Source: Gracilaria domingensis
Taxonomy: Eukaryota; Rhodophyta; Florideophyceae; Gracilariales; Gracilariaceae
DNA length: 64,000 nt
Direction: 5' to 3'
Assembly (NCBI GenBank): GCA_022539475.1
Contig: VCMS01000140.1
Coordinates: forward strand, 1 to 64,000
Part shown: piece by piece, positions 15,984 to 49,500 of the stretch
Layout: each line of letters begins with the position of its first letter
How positions within the stretch are numbered: the stretch's first letter is position 1
The notes under the pieces: model-generated
What the model was told of the DNA's origin: nothing
The model's database searches: none
What the model saw: the letters and a program-made list of their open reading frames with translations, nothing else
Made by a program: the position numbers and the translations under genes

Positions 15984-16624
15984 ATCCTTGCTGAGAAATG
16001 TTGTTTTGTAGCTTTTTGAAAGATGTTAGTCTTTGCAGCCTTCGTCGGCGCCCTGTTTGTGGATCAAATTTTAGCATGGTGGATCTATGTGGATTTTATC
16101 GGTACTGCATGTTACTCTGCAGTGTGAAGCAACACAGTTTGTGCGCCGAAGTTTAGGAAAGAACGGTAGAAATACATAACGCTTTTTACAGTACTATGCT
16201 TCAATTATCGGTAGCATTTTAAAACACCAAACGCACAAAATCGCATTTGGTGCGTTTGTGAATTTAAAATTCAAAAGCCTTCCTAAAATGACAAAACCGT
16301 AAATGTTTAAAGTAAATGAACAGTCATTTCAAGAGTTCTTGTCAGTTTTGCATTCAAATATGACCACCCATTATGAAACGAACGCACTGCGAGGGGAACT
16401 AGCAGCAAAAGCAGCCAATCGATATTGACTACTAAAGAGTACGCGCGCTGAAAGTAATGTTTTGCTTCGGGAGCAGAACTCGGTCTGCGGGGCAAGGCCG
16501 CTGACCGAGTTCATCCCAATCGCAAGCGCGAAGTCACGCCATGCGCTCAAAATGTGACTTTGAGCGTCGAACAAAATGTGTATTTGCTGTTTCAGGATGC
16601 TCCCAGTCCTTACCCAAATTGTGA
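15984..16624. other. Non-coding right end of the 5.3 kb element
   Basis: AT-rich DNA between the transposase remnant and the right TIR. It has a short near-palindrome around 16229-16262 (CACCAAACGCA / TGCGTTTGTG-like) and no convincing coding sequence. Confidence 0.4.
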
Positions 16625-17033
16625 TTTCAGGAGTTACCCAGTAGCAACAGGTGTATTAGGCAGGGTCTAAACAACCGTGAACGTGAGCGTGAACGGCGTT
16701 TTATTGGCAGAAAGTGGGTGGGGCATACACGCCCGTGAACGCCCCGGAGCAATTCTTTGAATGCCCCTGATCTGTAAGAAAAACGATTTGGCAAGTAATA
16801 CTGCTACACTTGGAAGCCTCTTTGCTAATCATTTGAATTCAAAACAAGTCGCCGCCAACGCCGATATGGTGCAGGTTATGATGCTTCCAGTGCATTTTAC
16901 GGGGTGCCCAACAACCCACTGCAGTCGACACAAATCGATAAGGTTTTAACTCTCCCCCTTGAGCACCTGCGTTCTCCCCAGGATAAAGGACAACGATTGC
17001 CTGTCCCCCCCCTTTTTTGTTCTCCTGTTTATA

Positions 17034-18574
17034 ATGTCAAGCCATACCTCATCTCAGCCCATTATCGCGGCTCCCGTGCGTAGAAGCCCGCGTAAACATC
17101 TCGGATCCAGACTACCGGTAGTACTGCCGTCCGTCGCTCAGCCTGATGCATCAAACACCTCCCCGCGACTTCGAACTGTTGCTAAAGTTGCGCTCCCTTC
17201 GTCATCGGACGTCACCGTTTCTCCTTACAACATTCCGGGATTTCGGGAAGAGCGCATGCAGTACGTCTACTCTTTCTTGCTGCGGAAAAGCGTTCCAGAC
17301 CTGCGAAAGATATGCAAACCGTTCCGCCTTACAGTTCGTAATCGCAAGCAGAATCAGCTGGTGGCGCAAATAATTCTGTTTCTACACGTCAAGAGCTTAG
17401 AAGACATCAGCATAAGAGATTTTTTATCTCTCAATGACGAGTTGAAATCTTTCTTTGTTTGGGAGAAGACGTGCATCGAAAGTCGCGCAATTGTTACTCC
17501 TCTGCTCGATGTGGGGGAGTTTCTCAACATCGTTACTGAGAAAGACAGAGCCGTCTACGAGAAGCAAATTGAATCGTTTCAACAAGAAGATGAATCGTCA
17601 GAGAAGTTTCCGTTAACATTGGAGGAACCATCTGGTCATAAAGAGCCGACCTTCAGCATGAATGAATTTGCACGGCTTATAGTACTACTGCGCGATGATG
17701 AGCAAGCTCGGATTGCATTGGATAAGGCCGTGGGAGGGACGTTAAGTAAGGAAGTGCTTGACCGCAAAGTAACACGCGAGTCTTACTGGTTGACTATTGC
17801 GAGTCGTTTCAATAACAATGATCTAGATTCAAAGAATTGCTTCGGTGGGAGGATGGACGAAGTAGATTCAAACAAGAGACCACTTTGTTTAGGAATGCTG
17901 CTGTGTTGAGAAAACAATTTGAAAGCGTTCGGTATATCGTCACGACGGCAAGGTCTAGGTGGGCAGTGTCTGGTCAAAATGATCCAAGCAATATATCCAA
18001 CTTTCTTCGGAGGGTCCCCGGTGGGTCTGCTTTGACTGCTGATTCTAAACGAGCATACATTTTTTTCATCGTTGCAAGAACCGGTACAGCAAATGAAGCG
18101 CATCATTTGCTTACTACTTTCTCGAAGCTGATTGAAGAAGACGAAGGGGGTGTAGAGGAGGGTTGTCTGGGTGGCAAAGAACATAGCGAGGCGTTTAGCA
18201 GTCGACGGAGAAGTGGATCTAGTGCTCGGAAGAGTGGCAGTCAAAAACACAATTATGAGATTGCGAAGGGAGTTAGTGAGTCTAATCAAATTGGTCATGA
18301 ACAGACAGCTATCATGAGAGAGCATCTGGCGCTTGAACGCTAGAAAGCAGAGGGGCCAGTTAAGTCATCTGAAGAGGTCGAACTGGATGCGTATGCAAAT
18401 CGTATGAAGTTTGCTACATATCTTGCAGAAAGCTCAGCCCACCTAAAGAGAGTTCGTGATCTCCATGACAGGGAGGTGGTAGAAGTATTACAGGACAACC
18501 ACACCCTGTTGTTGAAGAAGTTCAAGCGCATGGTCCAAAAGGGGAGGAGTGGAGACCTTGATGACGAACCGTAA
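17034..18574 (+). pseudogene. Harbinger accessory (DNA-binding helper) gene, one frameshift and one stop
   Basis: From the ATG at 17034, residues 1-60 are basic and Ser/Pro-rich (RRSPRKHLGSRLP, an AT-hook or nuclear-targeting style segment). A SAP-like helical block follows (LLRKSVPDLRKICKPF), then the conserved region ARLIVLLRDDEQARIALDKA and YWLTIASRFNN. The frame changes around 17840-17890, continues to a TAG at 18341, and is open beyond that to 18574 with a helical basic tail. Harbinger elements need a second, Myb/SANT-like protein to bring transposase to the nucleus and DNA; position and layout argue that this is it. An intron instead of a frameshift near 17850 is possible, in which case only the TAG is damage. 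Confidence 0.6.
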
Positions 18575-19299
18575 CCTTGGATCGTCTTTTTCTAAGGCAG
18601 AATCTCCGGCATCTCTGATTGTGGGACATATCGGTGATGGGTATCCGGATTTCTTCCGTTTTTTCTAGTAGAGCCTTTACTTTTGTCGCCCACCATACTC
18701 AGTTTGTTTCCTTGCATTATCTCTTGCATTATCTGTTGCATTCATAAGGATTCCTTTGACCTACACTCTATGGTAATCTGCCACAGCCATCGCGCCAACG
18801 TTTTCCGATATGTATTTCAAGTCAATTCACTGTCCCACGCTCTCTTGGACCAAATTTTCTGCGACAGGAAGCCAAGCTTTCCTCCGCCATCGTTGCCTAC
18901 ACCCGTGTTCTGCGAGAGACCACCCTCTCCGACACGTCTGCAGACATTTGAGTACACCGTCTCAGAATGTAGTTAGATGCGAGTTGCATGCTTGAGGCTA
19001 ACTGTACCGTATTCGACCTCCGTCATTTCAGCGCCTCCGCAAACAACAACTTCATTCCAACTTCTACGAAGCCGTATTCTCCAATCACAACATCTCCATC
19101 ACATCCGTGTTGCATCAGCAGTTGATCCACTTCCTTTTCACTCCATTCTTCTCTTGTCCGTCAAAACGACAACGTGCGGTTTGAACTGCATTCAGAGCCC
19201 GATTTTCGGAACAGTTGCAGCAGAAGCTCCTTGGCGACAAACAATTGCAGCTTCTAGTCCGACATAGTGGCGGTCGGGAACCTCGCAAAGTTCCGCACA
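18575..19299. other. Cargo junction region inside the Harbinger element
   Basis: Between the accessory gene and the 6PGDH copy. T- and C-rich DNA with short broken frames; nothing I recognise. The left boundary of the captured cargo should lie here. Confidence 0.35.
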
Positions 19300-20070
19300 T
19301 GAAAGTCTCTGACGGAGATGAAAGTTCCCACTATGGCCCCAGTCTCATGCTGGGAGGACCGAAGAGTGCTTGGGAACTCGTCAAGCCAATGATGGAGAAG
19401 ATCAGTACCCAGGTTGACGACGGGCCATGCGTCACCTACATCGGCCCGGAAGGCTCTGGCAACTATGTCAAGATGGTTCACAACGGGATAGATATGCAGC
19501 TCGTCGATGAGGCCAATGACCTGCTGCGCAACGTTGCTGGTCTGTCAATGGAGAAGATCTCTGACGTGTTTGAACAGTGGAACGCCGCCGAATTGCAGAG
19601 TTTCCTCATTGAGATCACAGCTAAGATTCTTCGCCAGAAGGACGATGTCGTCAACGACAGATCCTATCTCGTCAACAAACTTTTGAATCAGACTGGATCG
19701 AAGGGTACTGGCATGTGGACCATGCAAGAAGCCCCTGCGAGAGGAGTCCCATCCCCCCCATTGGGGCAGCTTTGGAAGCCCGATTCATTTTCGCTCTAAA
19801 GAAGCACCGTGAGCTCGCTTTAGATGTATTGGAGGGGCCAGCCTTCTCCGCGGAAAGAAACCCCAACGTGAAGAAGCAGATTCTTGCTGATGTGCGAAAG
19901 ACACTTTATGCCTCCAAGATCTGCTCCTATGCTAAGAGCATGAATATCATTAGAAGTGCTGGTGTTGATGGTGAATGGGGCCTCAACCTTGGCCTCATTT
20001 TTCGTATCTGGAAGGGTGGCTGCATCATTCGCGTCAAGATCTTGGATAGTATACAGTCTGTGCACGACCG
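19300..20070 (+). pseudogene. gnd: 6-phosphogluconate dehydrogenase fragment captured by Harbinger
   Basis: The central and C-terminal parts of 6PGDH are clear: KVSDGDESSHYGPSLMLGG, then GNYVKMVHNGI and LQSFLIEITAKIL, then in a second phase LYASKICSYAKSM and IWKGGCIIRVK. The enzyme oxidatively decarboxylates 6-phosphogluconate in the pentose phosphate pathway. The N-terminal NADP-binding Rossmann domain is absent. Three residues are deleted after VKMVHNGI, where the family has substrate-contacting EYG or similar, and the frame shifts near 19750. It therefore cannot be active. It points the same way as the accessory gene and opposite to the aminopeptidase copy, so the cargo was not one co-transcribed unit. 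Confidence 0.85.
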
Positions 20071-20689
20071 TGATGCCACGTTGTTCTATTCTTCTCAAGA
20101 AGTTCAAGAGAACCGCGCGATACGCAGCGCCTCCTTGCCACCATTTATCCTCCGCGTTCACAAGTCATGTTAATTCGTCCTCATCGTTAGTATGCTCTTT
20201 TGTTCACCGCAGTTTCTATTTCTGAGATTAAGAGACGTACGTTGTGATCACTGTCTTGGACAGTATGCATAATGGAAAACGTTGCCTTGAGCGCCGCTTC
20301 GCGAAGTTCTTGTATGTGTGCTGGAGGTACAAGGCCATCTTGCATACCACCAAATTAGCAGGCATTAGCGAAATGCGGAGTATCAGTGAGTCACAGTTAG
20401 AACATCGAAATAGAACACGGAACAAAGCCAAAGTAGAAAAGGTCTTACCTTAGAAATAGAATCTGTATCGTAATCTCTTTGATGACGCTTAACGAATCCC
20501 ACTTGTTTCTGTTAAAGGCCTTGAAAGGTTTCAGCATTGGTAGGACACAGTCAACCAGGTCATTTGTTGAGGTAGAGGTGTTTTCGGCAATGAGACCACG
20601 AATGAAGCCCTTAGCGATCGCGTTCGCCGCAAGAGCAATAGCTCACGCACCTCCAATTGACCTACCAAAGACATATATGCGATTCGTAT

Positions 20690-23416
20690 CGACTCATCTC
20701 GCAATTCGCGCGGCAGCCTGTGGCTTCATGCGGTCCAATCGAGATACTTGTTCTGACAAAAACTTATAGCCACTACCATCGATGCGAATGTGGACGTTTG
20801 CTGATCCGTATCCGCGCATCAATGCATACACCTTATTCGGTACGCTCTCGCTATAAATTTCGTGAGCGGTGAAGCCCTTGACTATGTCGAACACATCGTC
20901 TCGAGTGCCGGTGAACTGAATAGCTAACCACTTTTCGACGACCGAAAGATCTGACTTCCACTTTTCATAGAACTCTTCCAGAGCAATTTCGCGTTCTGGG
21001 CTCGTGCTCGAAGACAAATACGCAAAGTAGCCAACACATCTGTCATGTTTGTACCGCTGCGCACAATCTTCAGGCACAGCTCAAACACCTCTTTGCTTCC
21101 GAGCGTTGCCAAGTATGTCCACGCAACGTTCTTTAATACACGCTTACCCTGCGAGTCCGGATCCAGTTTGTACTCCGAAGAATCCGTCACGCCTTCGTCG
21201 AATATCTTCTGCAAGTCTGCTTGAAGATTTTCAGCCCACTGTTTCATGAAATACTTTCGAGCAGCTTGGATGCGGACTGGGTCAGCTACCTCCACTTGCT
21301 CAGTTATGTACGACTCTGGCGGCAACAAAAACACTTCCGTACGCAATGCTGCATCAATCTCCGTATTCCTCAAAGTCTGCTTGAAGGAATTGATGATCGC
21401 TTCAGGCACCGAAGGGAACTCTTCGTCACTACTGATACACTTCACAATGAAGTTCAACGCAAGCTTCTGTCCAGACTCCCAACGGTAAAACTAATCGGTA
21501 TCATTTGCCATGAGGAATGCCAGCACGTCGTCTGAAGCACCACACACCCTTTCAAGTTTCACTGGCGCACTGAATCCGCGGAGCAGTGAAAGCACCGATC
21601 CCTTCGGAACATTATTGAAAACGAACATATCATCTCAGGATGAAAAGTTCAAAACCATGGTCGGAGTTGGCTCAGAGCCATCCCCCAGATCAACAGGCAC
21701 AGAGGACTCATCCGGACCAATAATACCTATGCGGATAGGAATTAGCATTGCTTCCGTGGTCGGTTGTTTCGCGGTTGCCGGAAGCATCTGGTTGAGTTTC
21801 AGAGAAGTGTAGAATCCCCGTCATTGTACGAAACGTCAACCGTCACAAACCGTGTGCCGGACTGATTATACCACCTTCGGAATACAGTTAGGTCCACATT
21901 TGGATTAGCATCCTGAATCGCTTGTACCCAATCCTCGCAGGTAACTGCCTTGCCCTCGTTACGTCCAAAGTAGATATCAGCGCCTTTGCCGAAACCCTCC
22001 GGGCCTACAAGGGTCTTGAGCATTTTGATTTCTTCAGCGCCCTTGTTGTAGACAGTGGCGGTGTAAAACGAATTGCAGGGTGATATAGGAAGCAGGACGA
22101 ATAGGGTGCGACATTGGTCCAGCATCCTCAGCAAACTGCGCAGTTTGCAAATGGCCACGTCATGAATTCGTTTCACCGTCTCTGAGTTCATGTCGGCAGA
22201 GAAGCTCTGATCGCGGAACACGGTCAATCTCTCCTTAAGAGAAAGTTGGAACCAAGAGCTCACAGTAACGCGATTACAGCTGTCGTTACGGAAGTACTCA
22301 TATGCTACAACACCTCGACGTTGTTGAAACCGGTATCTGTCGCTGTCTCGGACTTACAAGTACATATTTGCTCTTGCAGACGTTGAGGGAAGTGTTCCAC
22401 ATGGCACCAAAGACAAAAGTGGGCACCGCCACAGTGTTGAAGACATCATAGTTATACCCCAAACCATACACATCTTCATCCCATTTCATTGCTTTCGTGA
22501 GACTTCTCATGGCGTGATGGCACTTGCGGACCTCCGACTCTCCCATCACATAAACCTTGAGATGGACTTCTCTTCCGTTCATTGCGACAAACGTATCGGT
22601 CGAATGAGACAGATCTCCAGTAACCAAGGCAAACAGGTAACAAGGCTTGGGGAAGGGGTCCTCAAACTGAGCCCAATGACGATTGTCAGAAGATTCTCCA
22701 GAAGACACGCAGTTTCCATTGCTGAGAAGCACAGGACACTTTTTGCGATCCGCCTCTAAACGAACGGAAAAGATGGCCATGACATCCGGGCGATCTACGT
22801 AAAATGTAATTCTGCGGAAGCCCTCGGCCTCGCGCTGAGTGCAATAGTCACCTTGAGACATGTAAAGGCCTTCCAGAACCGTATTCTTCGCCGGGCGAAT
22901 CCTCACAACGCTCTCAAAAGTAAAGTCACTGGTAGGCAGTACGGTGGGAGAAATGGTGAGCGTATTTGCTGCCTGATCATACACATAATCCGAATCCTGG
23001 AGCACGGTTCCATCAATCTTGAGCGACGCCGGCTGCAAGGCAAGCGCTTTGCCGTCGAGAACAAGCGGCATGCCAGCATCACAGACTGGATGGATCTGCA
23101 GCTTGCAGCGAACCATCCTGTCCAGACCGTCATCATCCAGCTCGAGGCACAAGTCTCCGTGCGAAACAAAATATGGCGGAGCAGCGTAGTCAGCCAAACG
23201 TTTAATCTTCGGCTCGGTGGAAATCGGCGCCATGACAGGCTCCGTGGAACGTCGGCGGCAGCGCGAGCGGACGCAACCGTGGCGTCGGCAAAGGCGGCCA
23301 TTGCGCGACAACGCAGAGCGGCCGTGAAGAGCGGCGTGAAGGCGGAGCGAGGGCCAGCGAACAACGGGCTCGCGGCGGGACGCAGCAGGGCAAAACAGGC
23401 GAACGGCACGGTGCAT
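20690..23416 (-). pseudogene. M1 (PepN-type) aminopeptidase copy, zinc site destroyed
   Basis: A nearly full-length gene on the minus strand starting at the ATG at 23416. The N-terminus is Arg/Ser/Ala-rich like an organelle transit peptide. The beta-domain is well kept (GLYMSQGDYCTQREAEGF, ITFYVDRPDVMA, EDPFPKPCYLFALV). The exopeptidase motif GAMEN reads GAMWN. In the short section between open frames (about 22263-22297) the zinc motif HEXXH reads YEYFR, losing both histidines. Later blocks recur in other phases: FQLSLKERLTVFRDQSF, VYNKGAEEIKMLKTL and FRRWYNQSGTRFVTV, then the helical C-domain to about 20700 (RLDRMKPQAAARIAR). Several frameshifts plus loss of catalytic residues make it a pseudogene. 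Its GC-rich 5' end was captured too, pointing to DNA-level capture, not a cDNA. Confidence 0.85.
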
Positions 23417-23605
23417 CGTTTTGGTCGCGGCAAAGACTGGAGGCTGCGCCGCTCGTGCGCTGTGTGGATTGCATCGCGTTCGGCTTGGCCCAGCGGTGCG
23501 CGCCTTGTCGATGACGCTGCACTTGGCGGCGCCTTGATCTGACCTGTAGAATCAGAAGATCAGAGCGAGACAGAACCGATCCCTTTGCCTGCATCCATAG
23601 CGTTT

Positions 23606-24600
23606 CTAAACGTGAGAAAAGATGTGGGAGATTGACAGAAAAGAGCTTTTTGGAGAGCTCGCTATTCTTTGGGAGCGTTGAGAGGGCACTTGCGCCTTTG
23701 TTGATCTTCTCAGTCGGATCCGCTCCAGCTGCGAAAAGCCGAAAGGCAGCATCTTCCTGCTTCTGACGAACTGCACATATGAGGGGCGTATCTCCTTCAT
23801 TTTTCCACTAATCGACATCACCAGGAGCTGATTGACTATTGCAGCATGTCCGTTGAACGCTGCAAACATAAAGGCGGTGTTGCCATAATTGTTGGCGTGG
23901 CTACCGTCCGCTTTTGGTTGCGGCAGTTGGTCTACCACTGTAGAGTGACCGTATTTGACGGCGATCAGCAATGCTGTGGTGACGTCTTCCCTAGTGTGAT
24001 CCACTTTGGTATGCGCTCGCAACAGTTGGTACACTGGTCCACTACGGCAGAGTGCCCATTCTTCGCTGCCTGCATCAACGGGATGGATCCCGTTCCTTAT
24101 GCAAGATTAACGTCTTCATTCGCTGTGAACAAATGCTGAATGACTGAAAAGTGCCCGTTTTGATCGGCATGAATCAACGCGGTGACACCGTCCTCCTTGG
24201 ATTGATCCACTATATCTTATGCTTGCAACAATAACTCCGCTACATCCGAGCGACCTCTCCTAGCTGCCGAAAGAATCGCGTTACATCCTCTCTTGTTAAC
24301 GTTCTGGTCGGCGTTTGCTTGCAACAGTTCACCCACAACTGCAGCGTCTCCCTGCTGAGCCGCCTGAACCAGCGGGTTAGAACTTGTATCCCATGCATGA
24401 TTGGCATCTGCCTTAGCATGCTGGAGCTGTTCTATGATCTGCAAGTGCTCATTCTGAGCCGCTGTAATCAAAGCGGTGCACTTATGATACCCCACATGGT
24501 TCACTTTCGCTTTTGTCTGAAGCAGCTTCTCCACAGTTGCGAAATGGCCATTTTGAGCTGCAACAATCAGTGCGTTCGATCCGCCTTCGTTTTTGCCATT
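23606..24600 (-). pseudogene. Ankyrin-repeat gene fragment captured by Harbinger
   Basis: Minus-strand frames at 24534-24217 and 24034-23606 contain at least five ankyrin-like units (TALITAAQNEHLQIIEQLQ, NPLVQAAQQGDAAVVGELLQ, NAILSAARRGRSDVAELLL, TALLIAVKYGHSTVVDQL, TAFMFAAFNGHAAIVNQLL). The two pieces are separated by a stretch with phase changes and stops, and a short additional piece is readable up to about 24600. Ankyrin repeats bind protein partners, but nothing else indicates a role. It is the third cargo fragment and lies between the aminopeptidase copy and the transposase. Confidence 0.75.
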
Positions 24601-24849
24601 GCCCCGCTCTCCTTTTTGTCACAAACGAGTGACGGCGATGAAGTCTCAATTAAGAGTGGCAGTGAACAAAGCACGCGAGCTTCCATCTCTGGCATAAGGG
24701 CCGGAAAGAAATAAACGATGAAAACTGTCTCGTATGACTTGCTTCGCTTATATTGAAGGTATAGCACTGTTTCGGAGCTCCACCGTATGATATCGTCAGG
24801 ACTCAGTCCCTTTGTAAAAGCGTTTTGGTGCCCAAGTCGGCTTTACTGA

Positions 24850-26109
24850 TTAACAAAGTGGCTCGGCCACTCCCATCAAATCCGGGCGATGCAGGTTGCG
24901 TACACGCATAATCTCGACCATCTGACTACGCTTTTCCGTCGACTTCGGTACAGACACGCATGGTTCACGGCCTTCTTCTGGGGTGGCCATCATTTGCAGA
25001 CCTTCCTTTGAAACGCGATACCAATCGCGAATATCTTTTTCTAGATCCTCTTCTTCTTGTGGAGAAAAAGCACGCACTTTTTTTCCATCCTCATCGATAC
25101 AAAAGTTTTGTAACTTCATGCATAAAACAATTATACTAGCGTTGTTGCTGATAGAATAGTTAAGACGGCTCTGCAAGATCCTCCATCTGGCGACTAGACG
25201 CCCAAAAGCCTGCTCCACATGAACTCTCATGGAACTGAGAAAATAGTTGAATGACTTCTCATACCAATACTGTATTTGAGATGAAGGGATAGGAGTGATC
25301 AAGTTTCTTGTACAAATATATGCCTCATCCTCCACCAGCCAAAACTCGATTGGAAGGTTCTGACCACCCAAAAACTCGGAAAGCTTTGATGTTGCATAGG
25401 CTAACGAGTCGTGGGTAGATCCCACACATTTTGCAGACACAAACAAGAACCGACCTGCGTAATCGAAAACAGCTTGAACAGGAATAGCGTTGTAACCTTT
25501 TCTACACCAATATTTAGCAGCGTTTCGTCTAGGTGGCTTAATTTTGATAGTTATCCCATCGATAGCTCCAATACAGCCGGTGAGTGGACTTATCTTCGCA
25601 CGGGATGTTTTAAAACCCCTTGACAGTTTGCACAGATCATCGAACTTATCGGGTATACCGGAAAGCCTCAAAACTTTTGATAGTGCCATGCATGTCTCTA
25701 GGAATACAAAATAAACGGTAGATCGCTGCGTTCTGAAAAGTTGGTGTATTATATCCAAAGTGCCTCCTGCCAATCGACTCAAAGTAATTCCCAATCGCAT
25801 CGTTACCGAAAATATTGGTCGTCCTGCTCTACTTCCCATTTCATCGCTTTTGGACAAGTATGGACGTACAAGATCAGCAAGTTTGTAAAACGACTTACGA
25901 GACAAACGATAGTCTCTCTTAAACGTCGTGTCACTTAGAAAGTCAGTGATTGACTCAAACGTAACATTTCTACGCGTTTCGGCAGGCGATGTGTACGATT
26001 TCGTAGACGCATATTTCTCACTGTTCATGTTGATATGAAGAACGCCTAGATTGCGGACAATTGCCCGAGATCGTTCGGTTTGATGAGCAAGAAAAAGAAT
26101 AGGATGCAT
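24850..26109 (-). CDS. HARBI1-type (PIF/Harbinger) transposase
   Basis: An uninterrupted 419-residue protein with ATG at 26109. An N-terminal helical region (FLSDTTFKRDYRLSRKSFYK) precedes the DDE nuclease core: first Asp in GCIGAIDGITIKIKPP, second in WLVEDEAYICTRN, third acidic residue in RVHVEQAFGRLVARW. CMKLQNFCIDE closes the domain. Spacing and total length match Harbinger transposases, which cut at TWA targets and excise their element. It lies about 480 bp inside the right terminal repeat and is transcribed leftward, away from that end. All three catalytic acids are present, so unlike its neighbours this gene appears competent; the accessory partner in the same element looks damaged. 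Confidence 0.92.
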   Translation of the reverse strand: MHPILFLAHQTERSRAIVRNLGVLHINMNSEKYASTKSYTSPAETRRNVTFESITDFLSDTTFKRDYRLSRKSFYKLADLVRPYLSKSDEMGSRAGRPIFSVTMRLGITLSRLAGGTLDIIHQLFRTQRSTVYFVFLETCMALSKVLRLSGIPDKFDDLCKLSRGFKTSRAKISPLTGCIGAIDGITIKIKPPRRNAAKYWCRKGYNAIPVQAVFDYAGRFLFVSAKCVGSTHDSLAYATSKLSEFLGGQNLPIEFWLVEDEAYICTRNLITPIPSSQIQYWYEKSFNYFLSSMRVHVEQAFGRLVARWRILQSRLNYSISNNASIIVLCMKLQNFCIDEDGKKVRAFSPQEEEDLEKDIRDWYRVSKEGLQMMATPEEGREPCVSVPKSTEKRSQMVEIMRVRNLHRPDLMGVAEPLC

Positions 26110-26589
26110 GGTATCAGTTGTTCTTTAAACGGAACAAAGAAGGATGTGACGGCAAGATCTTGAAAATAAACATCTTGAAGACGACGGCGAAGGGCGTTGA
26201 GTAGTAATCTTAGACATGAGGATACGCAGGTATCAGTTTTGATTGAAACGCAGGAATTTGCAGGCTTCTGCATGTTTTGCTGGAGACTTTAAAGCGCACA
26301 GACGTCGGAAACCGAGGCAGAGCGCAATAAGAGTTGAAGATGCTTGTACGAACCGTACAACTTGGTTATCGATGGGAATACAGCGCTGATAAGGGCGCAA
26401 TGTGGGGGCCATGAGCCAAACTGCTCAACATGTTGGTGCACAATATTGCACACACAGAGGAAGTTTTGATTTGAACCTTGTTGGTGATAAAAATAGGTGT
26501 CTTGCCTAACTTACAGCTCTTTTTTTGAGAAATGTAAAGATTCACGCGTTCACGCGTTAACGTTCACGCTCTGTTTAGACCCCGCCTTA

Positions 26590-46527: not shown

Positions 46528-49500
46528 ATGGCGCGCGAGCCCTCTGACGATGCCGTGCAGGTCGCTGTGCGCGTGCGCCCGCTCAACGCGCGCGAGAAGG
46601 CCGTGCATCTCAACCCGGCGCTCCCGAGCTGGCAGCTGTCGCCGTCGTCCATCACGCAGAGCGTCAACCAGAAGCCCGTGCTTGCCAATTGCTTCTCGTT
46701 CGACCACGTCTTTCAGCCGGGCGTGCAGAACCTCAATGTGTTCGACGCCATCGCCAAGCCCGTCGTCGCGTCCGCAATTGACGGCATCAACGGCGTCATC
46801 TTTGCGTACGGCCAGACCGCTGCTGGGAAGACCTACACCATGCTGGGCACAGACGCTGACGCAGGCATTACTCCGCGCTCCATCTCGAATGTGTTTCAGT
46901 TGATCGCGCAGTGCTCGCAGCGCCAGTTCTTGTTGCGCGCCAGTTATATTGAGATTTACAATGAAATCATCCGTGACCTCTTGCTTCCGGCCAATGACAA
47001 CCTGCGCATTCATGAGGACGTCATCAACAAGCGCGTGTTTGTCGACGCTCGCGAAGAGGTGGTCGTGTGCGTGGACGACGTCATGCGCATCATTGCTGCG
47101 GGCGAGGCCGTGCGTGCCGTTGGCGAGACTAACATGAATGACCGTTCTTCGCGTTCGCACACCATCTTTACGCTCAAGATTGAGTCTAGGGAGACTACCT
47201 CCGACGATGCCGACGAGGACGCGCTCAACATTCAGAATGAAGGCGTTGCCATTCGAGCCAGTACTCTTTCGCTGGTCGATTTGGCGGGATCTGAACGCGC
47301 ATCCTTCACAAAGGCACAGGGCATGAGATTGGTTGAGGGGGGGCACATCAACAAGAGTCTTCTCACGCTCGGTACCGTCATTAACAAGCTTAGTTCGGGA
47401 GTATCTCGAAACGCCTCTCACATTCCCTACAGAGATTCTAAACTAACCCGCTTGCTGCAACCGGCGCTCGGTGGGAATGCAAGAACGGCTATTATCTGCG
47501 CCATCACACCGTCTACGCTGCACATGGACGAGACTTTAAGCACGCTCAAGTTTGCAAGTCGAGCGAAGAAAGTCACCAACCACGCGCAGACCAACGAGTT
47601 TTTGGATGATCGAGCCAAGTTGCGACGTGCTGAGAAGAAAATTGTCGCGCTTGAATTGGAGCTCCAGAAGTTCAAGGCGGGCGGCGGCGCTGTGATGAAC
47701 CAAATACAACCTTTGCAGCCACTTTCGACTGAAGGATTAGGAAGAATACGTGCCAACGAGGGCAGATTCGACAAACTTCTTGCGCATCTCATGCAAAACG
47801 GACTGCTTCAGCCAGAGAAGCCCGTTATCACGCGGACTCCTGGTGATATGACCAAGTCGGTTCCACTGCGAAGCGCACTTGACTTGCGAGTGCCTCAGCA
47901 GCAGCCTTCACCCATGGGTATAAACAACGTTGATCTTGAGCACGAGCAGCAGCTCACCGAAATGCGTCTGAAACTCATGCGAGCCGAGCAAGAAAGAAAT
48001 CGTGCACTTCTTGAAATCGAATTCGAACGGCGAGCCATGGATGAAGAAGTAGGGGCTCTGATCGCTTCCAATGAGCAAGCAACGAGGGATAGACTAATTT
48101 CCGAACGCGAATGCGAGGAAGCTCTGAATTCGTTGGCTAGGTCTCAGGCGGCGTCCCTAGTCAACGAGATGGTTTCGGATGCCATAAACACGTCATCATT
48201 GACCTCTGAAGTGAAAGAAGCAAATCGCAAGCTTTCCGTCATGGATGCGATTAAGAAGGAGAACGATACGTTCAAGAAGGAAATGGCAGTTTTACAGAAG
48301 GATCTTTCTGAAATACGAAGGCGTGAGAAGCGAGGTGTAGGTCCGGTGATGAAGGAGGTGCGCCAAGAGCATAACAAGCGAGTCGAGGCCGAAAGCAAAC
48401 TGAAAGCAATTCGAAAGCAACTTCAAACTTTCAAAACGGAGAAGGCGTCGATGATCAGAGATAGGAACGACATGGAGCGCAAAATGAAGGCCTTAACGAT
48501 GGAAAACGAACGTCATCGAAGCCACACCGAAAAGGCGCAGTCCAGAATTGAGAGGGTGGTCTCCGAAGCGAAGAAGGAGCTTCAAGCGACTCTTGATGAG
48601 AAGAACAAGGAGTTGTCGACTGCCTTGGAGGACTTGTCGTCGGCGACAACCCGTCGTGATGTGTTGGAAAAGCAAGTTACTGTGTTAATGGAGACAAATG
48701 CGAAGTTGTCTTCGGACGTAAGCTCGAGAACCGATGAAAAAGAATGTGCCGAGGAAGAAATCGTTCGGCTTCAGAACGAGATTAATTTGCTGCAGGAGAA
48801 GATCCAGAATGTTGAATCATACTCTAGTGGCCTTACCGAACAACTGGGAAAGGTCCATCTCGACCTTGAGGAGAAAAAGTCTGAGTTAGAAGAGGCTCTG
48901 AGGACGAGAAGTGAAACGGAGCAGACCGAGCTACTGACCGCGCAACAAGCTTTTGTTGAACTGGAAGTTCGTTTTCTACAGGGTGAGAAAACAATTTGCA
49001 GTCTTAAGGATTCCTTAAAGGAATGTGAACAAGAGAAGATTGCTCTTCAACAGAAGACAATGGTTTTGGAGACAGAGGTGGCGGAGCATGTGCGAGCGAA
49101 TGAAAATTTACGTTCGAAACTCAAAACTTCTGAAGAAGCAAAATCCACCGCTGAAGCTGAAACGGCTTCAGTCAGAAAGAATATGTCGTACGAGATTGAA
49201 CAGCTGCAAATCTGTCTCGAAAGCAAAGAAGAAGCAAAGAGAACAAGACAGCGGGGACTGGAAGAAAGTTTAGAGCTCCGTACCAGACTAGAGGAAATGA
49301 AGGTTCAAATGGAGGATATGAAATCGAGATCGAGAGAGTCTTGCGAAGAAAACGAAGAGTTGCGAAGAAAGGTCGGGTTATTGTTGTCCGAGACCGAGAC
49401 TAGGATGAGAGAACTTAATCGGATGGCTGGTAAGCTACGGTCTCGAGACGAAAAGATTTTTGAGTTAGAGGAGACACTGAGTGAGTTCGGGCGGGGGGAA

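Follow-up and report, generated by a model that had tools for sequence, protein, structure and literature searches.

Most work on the capture of genes by cut-and-paste transposons has dealt with the non-autonomous Pack elements found in land plants. In the passages cited here, Pack-TYPE elements are defined as non-autonomous and include Harbinger-PIF elements of rice and maize (PMC8903248), transduplicated host sequences are described for the grapevine elements Pifvine-3 (PIF) and Hatvine-6 (PMC2528002), and gap-filling and FoSTeST models are proposed for animal Pack-TIRs (PMC8277862). Here we describe a PIF/Harbinger-type transposon of the red alga Gracilaria domingensis, which occupies positions 16659-26586 of a stretch of 64,000 nucleotides (assembly GCA_022539475.1, contig VCMS01000140.1, positions 1 to 64,000). 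This whole stretch is called the window, and its contig is designated C140. We consider it quite probable (roughly 0.85) that the transposon kept its transposase and an accessory gene, while the DNA between them was repeatedly replaced by copies of host genomic DNA. In some of its relatives the same slot is occupied by other host genes.

The kind of process is known, namely, transduplication by transposase-bearing PIF elements, and in G. domingensis captured DNA and a transposase gene are likewise joined in one multicopy mobile unit. Similarly, grapevine PIF families with ORF1 and a transposase contain copied host exons and introns in several copies, which indicates that mobility was kept. However, the cited passages place the captured grapevine DNA in the 5' region, with a length of up to 3.5 kb (PMC2528002), whereas the slot in G. 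domingensis lies between two genes and holds 5.7 kb in the window copy; in a distantly related family (C8, see below) it holds about 6.4 kb, drawn from two loci; in addition, the cargo is layered, and selection was tested on carrier and cargo. As in Pack-TYPE elements, host coding DNA with a parent elsewhere lies within terminal inverted repeats (TIRs) and target-site duplications (TSDs). Unlike the Pack-TYPE elements of the cited definition (PMC8903248), the element has a transposase aboard, a frame of 424 amino acids (aa) in the same copy, and its lineage was formerly under purifying selection. Turmoil-1 of C. elegans also combines a Harbinger transposase with two captured coding fragments, but according to the cited passage these lie in the 760-bp inverted terminal repeats of a 5 kb element (PMC2572040). 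Animal Pack-TIRs share the filler copied from elsewhere, the short microhomology (median 2 bp there) and multicopy cases that transposed later; they differ in that over half of the captured sequences are located no more than 15 kb from their parent, and Harbinger is absent from the main text of that report (PMC8277862). In another red alga, Chondrus crispus, enlarged En/Spm elements of 16-20 kb are likewise oversized cut-and-paste elements with extra open reading frames (ORFs), but belong to another superfamily, and the cited passage gives no origin for the extra ORFs (PMC6431247).

Among the papers listed by the literature searches, none dealt with Harbinger cargo in red algae. As far as these searches show, the cargo size, the slot between two genes, the layered loading with an age order, the contrast of a selected carrier and a neutral cargo, and the possible foreign cargo are new. 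An earlier note, made from the letters of the window alone, had called a capture of this size by a Harbinger element with a complete-length transposase in the same copy unusual. The transposase is indeed of complete length, but the assessment holds only in part, since grapevine PIF elements with captured DNA have been published (PMC2528002, as cited above). In one copy and one slot, layers of different age can be read, and the carrier proteins were under selection while the cargo was dead. The compact genome, the single parent loci and the near-identical recent copies of the C8 family make the mechanism of capture testable.

The features of the element are listed below in window coordinates; for the cargo, the matching parent locus is given (C followed by a number designates a contig).

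16656-16658, no strand: left TSD, TTA, adjoining the left TIR
16659-16673, plus strand: left TIR, GGCAGGGTCTAAACA, 15 bp
17034-18574, plus strand: accessory gene, protein matches at 17067-17891 and 17873-18562
19010-19294, minus strand: cargo segment 1a, 3' part of an ankyrin gene, C39:216205-216489, 86%
19305-20076, plus strand: cargo segment 2a, part of 6PGDH, C142:65014-65795(-), 88%
20077-20694, minus strand: cargo segment 2b, DNA between genes plus part of a convergent hydrolase-like gene, C142:63676-64291(-)
20696-23541, minus strand: cargo segment 3, nearly whole M1 aminopeptidase, C25:764179-767046, 93%
23554-24671, minus strand: cargo segment 1b, ankyrin repeats, C39:217626-218748, 83%
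24850-26124, minus strand: transposase DDE_Tnp_4, 424-aa open frame, Pfam match
26572-26586, minus strand: right TIR, ending with TGTTTAGACCCCGCC, followed by TTA
26587-26589, no strand: right TSD, TTA, adjoining the right TIR

PIF/Harbinger elements are characterized by a target duplication of 3 bp, usually TTA or TAA, and by a second, Myb/SANT-like gene. The element has a DDE_Tnp_4 (HARBI1-like) transposase, which covers the entire profile PF13359 (E 3.7e-28), a 3-bp duplication, TTA, on both sides, and short TIRs of 15 bp with 14/15 identical positions. When the 64 kb of the window were searched with three 14-bp versions of the ends, allowing up to two mismatches, only both ends and one two-mismatch site at 47283 were found. 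The accessory gene and the transposase gene are convergent, with the host-like DNA between them. In the window the accessory gene is broken by a 1-nt deletion near 17887, compared to both siblings described below, and by one TAG, while it is an open frame of 541-592 aa in the elements on C6, C57 and C181. The accessory gene is thus a second conserved gene that faces the transposase, but a Pfam search of its protein found no family domain; an assignment as Myb gained no support from a Pfam search up to E 5, which gave five families, the best with E 0.023. The cargo matches PF00393 (6PGD, E 4.6e-35), the M1 domains PF17900, PF01433 and PF17432, and the ankyrin family PF12796. The earlier note had described this cargo as 6PGDH (+), a nearly full-length M1 aminopeptidase (-) and ankyrin repeats (-). 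The orientations and the extent of M1 were correct; however, 6PGDH is partial, a hydrolase-like piece has to be added, and the cargo frames of the window copy are disrupted.

The genome of G. domingensis (77.9 Mb in 680 contigs) was searched with both end regions, and two siblings were found, C6:58418-68252 and C67:108966-118864. They are about 97% (C6) and 91% (C67) identical to the window element over the full length, including the 5.7 kb cargo; the C6 copy lacks about 95-98 bp near window positions 21170-21267. The alignments end at or near the element ends, and the flanking DNA differs. The C6 copy and the related element on C57 have TGA on both sides, while the C67 copy, which no longer possesses a right TIR, is preceded by TGA on the left. 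The presence of the same cargo between different flanks implies that the cargo moved with the element, and it has evidently travelled to at least three sites. The transposase is open in the window copy and contains two stops in C6 and three in C67. Thus the single insertion with TIRs and a TTA duplication that the earlier note had postulated has verified ends and two whole-element siblings. An empty site was also sought in the genome and none was found: the left flank (16577-16650) belongs to a short repeat that also occurs on C45 and C287, and the match on C45 stops 8 bp before the insertion, with the right flank unmatched there.

Each cargo segment has a parent in the genome, located on three different contigs, and the matches (E from 0 to 3e-79), like the two further whole-element copies, are far beyond chance. 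Both ankyrin segments derive from C39:216205-218748, where the parent comprises two long overlapping frames, window positions 19305-20694 from C142:63676-65795 (88-91%), and the M1 segment from C25. The 6PGDH parent is one frame of 761 aa and the M1 parent one of 1056 aa, and outside of elements the genome shows one 6PGDH locus and one M1 locus. Since the parents are still in place, the capture must have occurred by copying. The captured C142 DNA reaches from 6PGDH across the intergenic DNA into a convergent hydrolase-like ORF (five Pfam matches, all under the curated cut-off), except for about 720 bp that are missing between segments 2a and 2b; therefore, genomic DNA was copied. In favor of a route via cDNA, the pieces captured from the 6PGDH and M1 parents and from C95 and C11 lie within single ORFs, so that intron loss cannot discriminate there. 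However, the C142 segment, with its parts of two convergent genes and their intergenic DNA, is at odds with it, the junctions contain no poly(A) tract, and the M1 copy starts about 125 nt upstream of the ATG of MHRAV..., which is a weak point, as the parent has an earlier in-frame ATG. A cDNA origin is therefore very unlikely. The earlier note had likewise favored genomic DNA, based on the mixed orientation and the GC-rich 5' end of M1. This end is present (69% GC over 300 bp) but is coding in the parent, and the C142 segment is the better support. At its other end the M1 copy stops 131 nt short of the end of the parent ORF.

The arrangement of the segments is layered. The C142 and C25 segments lie inside the ankyrin segment, where they replace C39:216490-217625, and the absence of these 1,136 bp of the ankyrin parent at the split indicates that DNA was replaced. 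The inner junctions are abrupt and common to all three copies; the junction inside the C142 segment has a 3-bp overlap, that between C142 and C25 has no clear overlap, and the inner ankyrin junctions contain fillers of about 10 and 12 bp. A layered interior with a split ankyrin segment, in a genome with many transposase matches, could also have been built by nested transposon insertions, each cargo gene having arrived with its own mobile element, as the earlier note had allowed. But the inner junctions are without duplications, the DNA at the split was replaced and not simply interrupted, the host loci that correspond to the segments have long ORFs, and inside the element no further ends of its own TIR type were found, other element types not having been searched. 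Nested insertions are thus highly improbable, and the evidence supports nested capture instead. Likewise, neither an own TSD for each cargo gene nor a locus with the cargo genes together and without element ends was found, the two outcomes that the earlier note had named as contradicting a capture.

The order of loading was deduced from private changes, which were counted in four-way alignments of the three element copies and the parent, so that parent-private changes comprise the parent branch and the stem of the element. C67-private changes are uniform across the cargo segments (4.0, 4.6, 3.9, 3.2 and 3.6%; p = 0.86). In contrast, parent-private changes are very uneven over the segments (p = 1e-29), with 2.5% (68/2746) for M1, 4.7% (29/615) for the hydrolase side, 6.5% (50/765) for 6PGDH, and 11.9% (33/277) and 11.2% (124/1107) for the two ankyrin parts; at third positions alone the values are 2.9, 8.7 and 17.6%. 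Thus, the outer ankyrin segment looks oldest and an inner segment youngest, an order that nesting predicts, and the loading looks stepwise.

The slot is not restricted to this group of elements. Matches to the transposase were found at 99 places (99 scored among 256 candidates) and to the accessory protein at 78 places (77 of 134 candidates scored), both of which are lower bounds. Split matches were merged, resulting in 96 transposase and 67 accessory entries, and facing genes at most 25 kb apart were paired. This yielded 51 convergent pairs, in which 50 different accessory genes take part, as one on C176 is a member of two pairs, compared to four non-convergent neighbors, all on contigs with a further match. 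The gap between the two genes is at most 1.5 kb in 8 of the 51 pairs, 2.8 kb in two and more than 3 kb in 41, with a median of 5.8 kb. A wide gap alone is no proof of cargo, and gaps of 16-19 kb may represent chance neighbors or later insertions. The pair on C93, with a gap of 1.06 kb, looks unloaded, judged from gap length alone.

Only a part of the 51 interiors was read. Among the nine loaded lineages that were read, host genes or parents were identified in six, including the window group. The element on C57 (C57:187637-192687) carries the C-terminal part of an SNF2 gene and a part of a Sac phosphatase gene, the resident Sac gene being on C95, and a partial copy on C152 (C152:118455-121209) shares the transposase and the right part of the cargo at more than 99%. 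The C41 cargo is an SNF2 gene with 96.6% to C122 over 1.7 kb; we read the SNF2 genes of C41 and C57 as SWR1-like. The C204 cargo, next to a broken transposase, is SNF2 and matches C91 at 87%; a single frame stays open on C91 throughout the 3.4 kb retrieved. The C8 cargo consists of 5.1 kb of PSME4 from C11 (93.7%, parent frame 1963 aa) and 1.28 kb from C25 (86%). It is present in eight copies at 99-100% (C8, C390, C163, C336, C4, C87, C19, and C28 over 5,981 of 6,301 bases), which indicates that a loaded element spread recently. The C8 element (C8:148879-159618) is 10.7 kb long, both ends are common to C8 and C390 and the TIRs are clear; the flanks of C390 agree with a TCT duplication, and those of C8 show none. 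The C181 cargo contains an M13 peptidase gene within a mosaic. This interior (C181:100419-104536) comprises at least six matched segments, some of which recur in the elements on C214 and C9 and on C31 and C57, so that pieces may have been swapped between elements, or a part of the mosaic may be element sequence. In another lineage, 3.6 kb of the interior (C303:49100-52691) match C99:144628-148202 (85%) and, in two pieces, C81.

Carrier and cargo differ in their mode of evolution. On the branch that separates C67 from the window and C6 copies, changes in the transposase are concentrated at third codon positions (20:19:70 for positions 1:2:3, p = 7e-11), as are those in the accessory gene, which was counted in two parts (11:16:38 and 6:6:20; sum 17:22:58), while the tip branches of the window and C6 copies are flat for both genes. 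Private M1 changes are evenly distributed in the window copy (7:8:8), in C67 (36:37:36) and on the stem (20:18:19). With 56:55:55 on the C67 and stem branches, the M1 pattern differs from that of the transposase (p = 3e-6) and that of the accessory gene (p = 1e-4) on these branches. All three copies have in common one ankyrin stop and, in M1, a frame break of 17 bp and several of 1 bp, by which the two pieces are judged to have been broken before the copies split. M1 drifts neutrally, and the cargo is no longer coding. Dead cargo was thus carried by a lineage whose transposition genes were under selection. An inspection of the mutation spectrum by eye revealed no strong excess of CpG or other contexts.

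It might be argued that selection maintained the cargo genes because their proteins serve the element as functional accessories, in line with the same cargo set in three copies and with the compared pieces of the C57 cargo (2.2 kb and 1.1 kb), which have no in-frame stops and few changes at positions 1 and 2 versus the resident genes (Sac 44:31:187; SNF2 versus C122 24:27:87). However, besides the neutral and early broken M1, changes versus the parent are even in C41 (12:12:11), and 14 stops are present in C204 (154:117:138) and seven in PSME4 of C8 (93:92:125). Even the C57 cargo has frame-breaking length changes, which speak against a present function, and an in-frame stop at 189059-189061, in SNF2 outside of the compared piece. 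Retention of the cargo for its function is hence highly improbable.

The pattern of the C57 cargo points to its donors. Its fourfold divergence from the resident genes is 30.1 and 31.2%, compared to 3.8% for C41, 8.2% for C8, 10.8% for C204, 4.5-7.1% for M1, 15-19% for 6PGDH and 23-26% for ankyrin. As the last two values are also high, a high silent divergence alone is not special, but the low level of change at positions 1 and 2 is. The third-position excess, divided by the mean of positions 1 and 2, is 4.0 and 2.4 for the C57 pieces, in contrast to 0.3 for M1, 0.6 for 6PGDH and 1.2 for ankyrin (parent-private changes). If resident genes had been copied, the neutral change of the cargo would have to equal the silent change of the parent, and in C57 it is about 2.4-4 times too small; the donors were therefore probably diverged genes that had functioned during most of the time of divergence, either in another species or as paralogues that have since been lost. 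Tentatively, Harbinger elements with a standing, reloadable slot might have transferred host genes from one algal species to another, with the SNF2 and Sac pieces of C57 and C152 stemming from another, diverged red alga. We regard this as possible but rather less likely than its opposite; the single 6PGDH and M1 loci speak against a wholesale mixing with a second alga. If true, Harbinger elements can move host gene sequences between species. The Sac cargo also contains a 59-bp near-palindrome (C57:192264-192322), one half of which matches the parent on C95 in inverted orientation.

Capture probably takes place when the middle part of an element suffers a break or gap and is repaired from a wrong template, and the reloaded copy would transpose later; the slot is probably tolerated because it is located between two 3' ends. 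Alternatively, the mosaic could have arisen by end-joining of broken DNA during excision, and not by template switching. The absent or short overlaps and the fillers of 10-12 bp fit equally well with this, but the parents are in place, so that the joined pieces would need to be copies, and long contiguous copies, up to 5.1 kb for C8 from C11, fit better with copying synthesis. End-joining thus seems unlikely, though considerably less so than the other alternatives discussed above.

Several points weigh against repeated replacement of the interior by repair and its stepwise order. The repair event is not visible in the sequence, and the junctions are compatible with template switching as well as with end-joining. 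We infer mobility from the copies and from selection. The age order presupposes that silent changes accumulated at similar rates in the parents, so unequal rates could distort it, and it cannot separate the branch of the parent from the stem of the element. M1 changes in C6 (17:6:8, p = 0.036) are the sole non-flat result among five M1 codon tests, and the 6PGDH and ankyrin element branches are flat, but the changes are few. C204 has no accessory match, so its cargo is shown only beside a broken transposase, and a scan of the ORFs of C214, C303 and C30 yielded no Pfam match above the curated cut-off.

Outside of the genome, the best relative of the transposase is the protein P0001 (46%), and a single relative of the accessory protein, P0238 (30%), was present among 8000 scored candidates. 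Each is encoded on a contig that is 7,934 bases long and comes from the same source, and they probably represent one two-gene element.

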